33,841 nt of DNA from Microbacteriaceae bacterium. Its GTDB lineage: Bacteria > Actinomycetota > Actinomycetes > Actinomycetales > Microbacteriaceae. The notes under the pieces were generated by a model. That model saw nothing but the letters and a program-made list of their open reading frames with translations, did no database searches and was not told the DNA's origin. Below, one piece after another: positions 13,183 to 14,101 of this stretch (positions within the stretch are counted from its first letter, which is position 1; each line of letters starts with the position of its first letter). Location of the stretch: NCBI GenBank assembly GCA_947448845.1, contig CANFOX010000006.1, forward strand, positions 1 to 33,841. Reading direction: 5' to 3'. Both the position numbers and the translations under genes were made by a program.

Positions 13183-14022
13183 TTAGTGCTCGTCTGCCAG
13201 GGCCAATTGAATGTAGACCGTGGTCAGCAGAGTAAAAACATAGGCTTGCAAGAACGCCACCAGAATTTCGAATAGCGTAAAGATGAAGCCAAAAATAAAG
13301 GTTCCGGCGCCGAAGGCTTTGAATACGCCCTCTGCGTTGAACAAAAAGAATTGCGTTGCCGAGAAACAGAGCACCAGCAGAAGGTGACCGGCAATCATGT
13401 TCATCATCAAACGAAGAGCCAGCGTTACTGGTCGAAGAATGAAGGTTGACAGAAACTCAATTGGTGTCACCAGAATGTAAAAGGCAGCGGGAACGCCGGC
13501 TGGAAACAACGAGTTCTTGAAGAAACCGAGGCCGTGCTTTCGAACTCCTGCGTAGATGAAAGTTACGTAAGCGGCAACTGCCAAAACCAACGGAAGCCCT
13601 ATTACCGAGGTTCCAGCAATGTTCAAGGATGGAATGATTCCGGTGATGTTCATACCGAGCACCGTGAAGAACATGGTTGCCAATAGCGGCAAGAACCGGT
13701 CGCCATCTTTCACGCCAAGCTGATCGTGAGCAATGCTGTTTCTCACAAAGTTCAGCGAGATTTCACCCATCAACTGAAACTTGGTAGGAACCACCTGGCC
13801 GGCTTTGGCCGCGTTGCGAAACTTGCTAGCCCAAAGCGAGAAAACCAAAATAAGCAAGGCAGTGACCAGGAGACGAATCAACATGATTCGGTTTAGTTCA
13901 AACGGGGTTCCGGCAAAGGCAACTACCTCTGGGTAGAACTCGTTGATGCTCGGCGGCTCGAAACCGCCATCGGCAGACGAGCTAACCGCCAGTGGCAGGT
14001 GCGCTAGAACATGCGTGAACAG
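13183..14022 (-). CDS. atpB: ATP synthase F0 subunit a, probably initiated at a non-canonical CTG
   Basis: ORF track begins at internal Met 13884, but the same frame is open upstream to the stop at 14065-14067 and encodes [46 protein letters not shown], which resembles actinobacterial AtpB N-termini. No ATG/GTG/TTG in that extension; CTG at 14022-14020 has CGGGAG 6 nt upstream. Family identity certain, start uncertain. Confidence 0.9.
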
Positions 14023-14040
14023 ATTGAACTCCCGTTTCGG

Positions 14041-14059
14041 GCAGATTGGAACAATCTGC
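14041..14059 (-). promoter_or_regulatory. Hairpin in atpB leader
   Basis: Perfect inverted repeat GCAGATTG-GAA-CAATCTGC (8-bp arms, 3-nt loop), just upstream of the putative atpB Shine-Dalgarno. Confidence 0.6.
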
Positions 14060-14101
14060 GTCGATTACTGTTTGTGCTGACAAAGTCAGGTGTTGCCTTT
14101 T

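Follow-up and report, generated by a model that had tools for sequence, protein, structure and literature searches.

A probable inherited CUG start codon on actinobacterial atpB, preceded by a candidate leader RNA

Results

The atpB locus and its reading frame

The window, that is, the whole 33,841-nucleotide stretch of DNA analyzed here, comes from a freshwater Microbacteriaceae bacterium whose genus, by inference, is probably Rhodoluna. Its minus strand harbors atpB, which encodes the proton-channel subunit of ATP synthase; each complex contains one such a subunit and multiple copies of the c subunit. The product carries an ATP-synt_A domain (PF00119, E 6e-53, 180 bits against a cut-off of 33.9) and scores 137.9 against TIGR01131 (cut-off 102.6); both its domain content and its position in an atpBEFHAGDC operon identify it as F-type ATP synthase subunit a. 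Downstream lie atpE (13136-12906) and then atpF (12886-12347). Upstream is a Cg1360-family ATP-synthase-associated gene (AtpI-like, window 14156-14557, minus strand), which ends at 14156, 133 nt from the atpB CTG; translational coupling to this gene is ruled out by the distance of its stop. The gene and its start comprise the following features.

13183..14022, minus strand: atpB (F0 subunit a), 279 aa from the proposed CTG start, stop codon included
14020..14022, minus strand: proposed CTG start codon, in register in 201 of 285 loci
14029..14034, minus strand: Shine-Dalgarno (SD) box CGGGAG, which reads CAGGAG in relatives

The atpB frame stays open between a TAA at 14067-14065 and its stop codon at 13183; re-reading it bears out the original prediction that no ATG, GTG, or TTG lies between that TAA and the Met at 13884. 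The CTG at 14022-14020 likewise stands as described, behind CGGGAG at 14034-14029 with a 6-nt spacer (TTCAAT). CUG is a very rare start codon that differs from AUG at the first base, as GTG and TTG do, yet is normally rejected. Were the real start further downstream, at Met 13884 or at a GTG, TTG, or ATG elsewhere, the upstream open frame would be incidental; standard gene calling does yield a 233-aa ORF, the truncation anticipated for automated callers. That start, however, would cost the window protein residues P1, F6, P8, R22, and I23 (alignment A1), which are encoded upstream of Met 13884 and do not vary among 13 AtpB proteins of several families. The homologs do not start at Met 13884, a truncated AtpB beginning there is ruled out by these conserved residues, and the stretch before it encodes, in line with the original reading, a conserved N-terminus.

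Conservation of the proposed CTG start across actinobacteria

An in-register SD–CTG pair, with CTG 5 to 7 nt after GGAG, is found at 201 of 285 distinct actinobacterial atpB loci, more than chance would give, such that a codon other than ATG, GTG, or TTG is kept at SD distance among relatives; since these loci share ancestry and some derive from close strains, we attach no probability to the counts. The spacing is 6 nt in 174 loci, 7 nt in 22, and 5 nt in 5, and the pair extends from the Microbacteriaceae through other families of the order to Nocardia, Rhodococcus, Gordonia, and Corynebacterium.

Within Rhodoluna, where the gene was found in 60 of 67 genomes, 45 of the 58 distinct loci scored have CTG in register 5 to 7 nt after GGAG; the other 13 have TTG (nine), ATG (two), GTG (one), or a CTG at 9 nt (one). 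The Microbacteriaceae consensus reads GCCCCGAAACAGGAG-ATAGCG-CTG-YTA-GCT-AAC-GCT, and among 86 distinct loci of the family outside Rhodoluna the SD–CTG pair is present in 81 and TTG in the remaining five. The exceptions in both sets are all start codons (TTG, ATG, GTG, or a shifted CTG) at or beside the site, and none is a synonymous leucine codon. The automatic SD rule misplaces starts outside the Microbacteriaceae through a shifted anchor, and the other families of the order were instead read by eye: CTG occurs in f9, f11, f12, f16, and part of f7, GTG in f2, f5, f8, f10, f13, f14, f15, and others, and TTG in f6. Named genomes with CTG include Cellulomonas, Oerskovia, Isoptericola, Actinotalea, Brevibacterium daeguense, Nocardia, Rhodococcus, Gordonia, and Corynebacterium glucuronolyticum, and an exact pattern search returned further genomes of the class with the Nocardia/Rhodococcus form. 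Some Microbacterium have TTG at the site, and Leucobacter has an ATG two codons before a CTG that remains. On these alignments, related lineages place GTG, TTG, or, rarely, ATG where the putative CTG start stands.

A sequencing or assembly error could in principle have replaced a canonical start in the window genome, which is fragmented and 83% complete. The same CTG, however, occurs in most of the 60 same-genus genomes and across dozens of further genera, and its carriers include named isolates and single-contig genomes; an error is refuted by these relatives, none is needed to account for the codon, and we give this explanation a vanishingly small probability. The putative CUG start is inherited and is not new in the window genome.

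The sequence on either side of the CTG separates leader from coding region. In 22 loci, Rhodoluna L034, L045, and L047 among them, the SD box is one base further away and in a different frame while CTG stays in frame; an in-frame stop lies within five codons upstream of CTG in 13 loci, and L003, L004, and L006 have a TAA two codons before it. These frame shifts and nearby TAA codons indicate that the sequence upstream of CTG is an untranslated leader. Codon 2 encodes leucine in 96 of the 201 SD–CTG loci and is CTG in none of the 201, whereas CTG makes up 182 of 462 leucine codons at codons 3 to 20; codon 2 is AT-rich (CTA, TTA, TTC, or TTT) in most loci.

These loci also bear on a downstream start. 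A canonical codon is present between CTG and the conserved motif in 114 of the 201, but it has an SD-like tetramer in just 3 of those 114, whereas CTG has an SD box in conserved register; 87 loci offer no ATG, GTG, or TTG in that interval, and at the commonest candidate site the codon varies among GTG, GTA, CTC, CTG, and ATC. We therefore regard a downstream start as very improbable. The originally proposed initiation at CTG is, in contrast, strongly supported by the conserved register, the exchange of CTG for canonical starts alone, the SD frame shifts, and the near upstream stops, and further by 51 loci whose open frame contains no ATG, GTG, or TTG anywhere ahead of the conserved motif. Judged from this comparison, Rhodoluna atpB is very probably translated from the CUG at 14022-14020.

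Control genes in the same genomes

Among 80 named loci, atpE starts with GTG in 51, ATG in 6, and CTG in none; 15 loci yielded no start by rule and in 8 the gene was not found. By these counts the predicted CTG start is confined to atpB as against neighboring atpE. A non-canonical start on infC is already known from other bacteria, and the codon after the infC SD is ATC or ATT in all 25 readable loci, the window genome included, so that the approach retrieves a known non-canonical case. These genomes retain the IF3-sensitive infC start, seen at L312 (G000 contig 35) and at L299-L326 in Rhodoluna and other families of the order.

A covarying hairpin in the atpB leader

The leader above the SD box contains the following elements.

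14102..14110, minus strand: extended -10-like element TGCTAGAAT, conserved in the genus as TGnTAgnaT (leader alignment)
14077..14089, minus strand: small upstream hairpin P1, CTGAC-TTT-GTCAG, a predicted fold that is variable in relatives
14062..14064, minus strand: UCG, 5' side of the UCG/CGA helix (Rhodoluna and family alignments)
14041..14059, minus strand: P2 hairpin GCAGATTG-TTC-CAATCTGC, eight perfect pairs (covariation in genus and family; model R1)
14037..14039, minus strand: CGA, 3' side of the 3-bp UCG/CGA helix, kept in the family

The layout is UCG-nn-hairpin-nn-CGA-SD-CUG (leaders in L002-L059), with the whole structure spanning window positions 14037-14064 on the minus strand. 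Most Rhodoluna leaders read UAAAUCGCC-[GCAAGG...CCUUGC]-CCCGAAACAGGAG, and the CG and GC pairs of the UCG/CGA helix are invariant in 32 Rhodoluna sequences. P1-like hairpins were seen in relatives by eye. A lower CUGU/ACAG helix fits most Rhodoluna leaders and is broken in several, and we do not claim it. The -10-like element returned no match in a sigma-70 consensus scan of the minus strand. In C. glutamicum, atp transcripts start upstream of atpB (PMC3917460).

Compensatory change in this leader exceeds that in shuffled controls. Both sides change in 7 of the 13 pairs of the tested structure in the Rhodoluna alignment (A2), a value reached by none of 500 shuffles, and slid controls score lower; the family alignment (A3), which was fitted to the model, has 27 covarying cells against 6.0 expected, again with 0 of 500 shuffles. 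The Mycobacteriales alignment (A4) is weaker, with 24 of 500 shuffles for the covariation score. Covariance model R1, built on Rhodoluna, matches the window at E 5e-9, 51 of 66 Rhodoluna genomes at E ≤ 0.01 (a single copy each, adjoining atpB), and 56 of 85 family loci at E ≤ 0.1. R1 does not reach the Mycobacteriales leaders, and the likeness there rests on the separate alignment, in which Nocardia, Rhodococcus, and Gordonia leaders take the form UCG-AA-[CCGC...GCGG]-CC-CGA-ACACGGGAG-AGAACG-CTG. Taken by itself, the window leader has an unremarkable fold energy (z -0.96), and support for the structure comes from covariation instead. The window stretch and 12 relatives gave no Rfam match up to E 1. 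The UCG-hairpin-CGA-SD leader is a candidate new RNA family.

In Rhodoluna L026, L032, L046, L049, and L050, the hairpin is absent while SD and CTG are kept, which argues that the start codon is independent of the hairpin and that the two are not strictly coupled. The -10-like element of this subgroup is near the SD box.

The aligned leaders speak further to how ribosomes would reach the CUG. In place of direct SD-led initiation, they might re-initiate once they have translated a short upstream ORF or the upstream gene, and the window leader does contain out-of-frame TTG codons; these lack an SD, however, the aligned leaders share no conserved start-and-stop pair, the upstream gene stops 133 nt away, and an SD box 6 to 7 nt before CTG is almost invariant. 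We consider re-initiation highly unlikely. Taken as a whole, an inherited, SD-led CUG start on atpB accompanied by a covarying leader hairpin is in our judgment a likely account of the locus. The leader hairpin and the breadth of CTG conservation are new beyond the original prediction.

Discussion

The efficient use of CUG on this gene needs explaining, since M. smegmatis reporters hardly ever select CTG as an SD-led start (0.03%; PMC4633059) and CUG complexes are less stable than those on AUG, GUG, or UUG in E. coli systems (PMC11497404). The SD box 6 nt upstream would set CUG into the ribosomal P site, where fMet-tRNA would pair weakly with it. IF3 represses non-canonical starts, and in Streptomyces a GTC start holds SigR below RsrA (PMC5472188). 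By analogy, CUG may have been retained because a weak, IF3-discriminated start would hold synthesis of the single a subunit low beside that of the multicopy c subunit; we put this purpose at somewhat short of an even chance. Tuning of a-subunit stoichiometry, the purpose put forward originally, is plausible. The pattern suggests that cells keep the subunit a start deliberately weak. Alternatively, the CUG may be real and purposeless, an ancestral weak start that is tolerated as the SD box and an AT-rich codon 2 compensate. The strong, conserved SD box and the AT-rich codon 2 of most loci fit this reading, as do the several lineages that have moved to TTG, GTG, or ATG and to which CTG was evidently dispensable. 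On the other hand, CTG persists in many genera though one substitution would give ATG, GTG, or TTG, the codons that replace it are for the most part non-AUG as well, and a start codon generally turns into CUG very rarely (2 of 61,358 ancestral AUG starts; PMC5622118). A tolerated ancestral start and a purposefully weak one are equally likely readings.

What the leader contributes is more tentative. It is possible, though we hold it with some doubt, that the UCG-nn-hairpin-nn-CGA-SD arrangement modulates access to the SD box. IF3 sensitivity of the CUG could also couple ATP synthase to the state of translation, and a comparably speculative proposal is that the atp operon has an ancient actinobacterial control element made up of CUG and leader, which would set a-subunit synthesis in response to a small molecule or a protein, be it IF3 or some other factor.

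The closest likeness among known systems is in part that of infC, a single essential gene whose non-canonical AUU or AUC start, preceded by an SD, is deeply conserved, as CUG would be on atpB; the infC product, however, is IF3 itself, which autoregulates through its AUC/AUU codon. The Streptomyces sigR GTC start (PMC5472188) is likewise actinobacterial, has a strong conserved SD, and is a weak, IF3-repressed start that holds one partner below the other. It differs in being GTC or GTT, confined to one genus, and experimentally proven, whereas the predicted atpB CUG spans many families and lies on a membrane-complex subunit. The GTG- and TTG-started atpB genes of other actinobacterial families share gene, position, and SD, and GTG, TTG, and CTG exchange between families. 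We found no earlier report of a CUG/CTG start on atpB in the openly accessible literature searched.

To our knowledge, hardly any conserved CUG start has been documented in bacteria, and the one described here would sit on a core ATP synthase subunit over many actinobacterial genera. Many actinobacterial genomes may carry wrongly annotated AtpB N-termini where callers accept ATG, GTG, or TTG alone. Whether F0 subunit stoichiometry is set by a weak start codon is a question for which the atpB CUG would provide a clean, natural test.

With the covarying leader, the atp operon would be headed by an undescribed RNA. Like riboswitches and ribosomal-protein leaders, it has a covarying hairpin with invariant flanks joined to the SD; unlike them, it is small, has no Rfam family, and is lost in some CTG-keeping Rhodoluna. 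Leaders elsewhere have their own conserved wording: Nocardia, Rhodococcus, and Gordonia (L294-L297, L267-L293) share a near-invariant GTCCGATCGAACCGC...GCGGCCCGAACACGGGAGAGAACGCTGAGCGT, and Cellulomonas-like families have another before CTG, ATGACGGCCAGGTCCGACGGCGTGCCC... CGACCACSGGGAG, at loci L153, L155, L159, L163, L168, L207, L211, L255, L262-L264, L271, L281, and L287.
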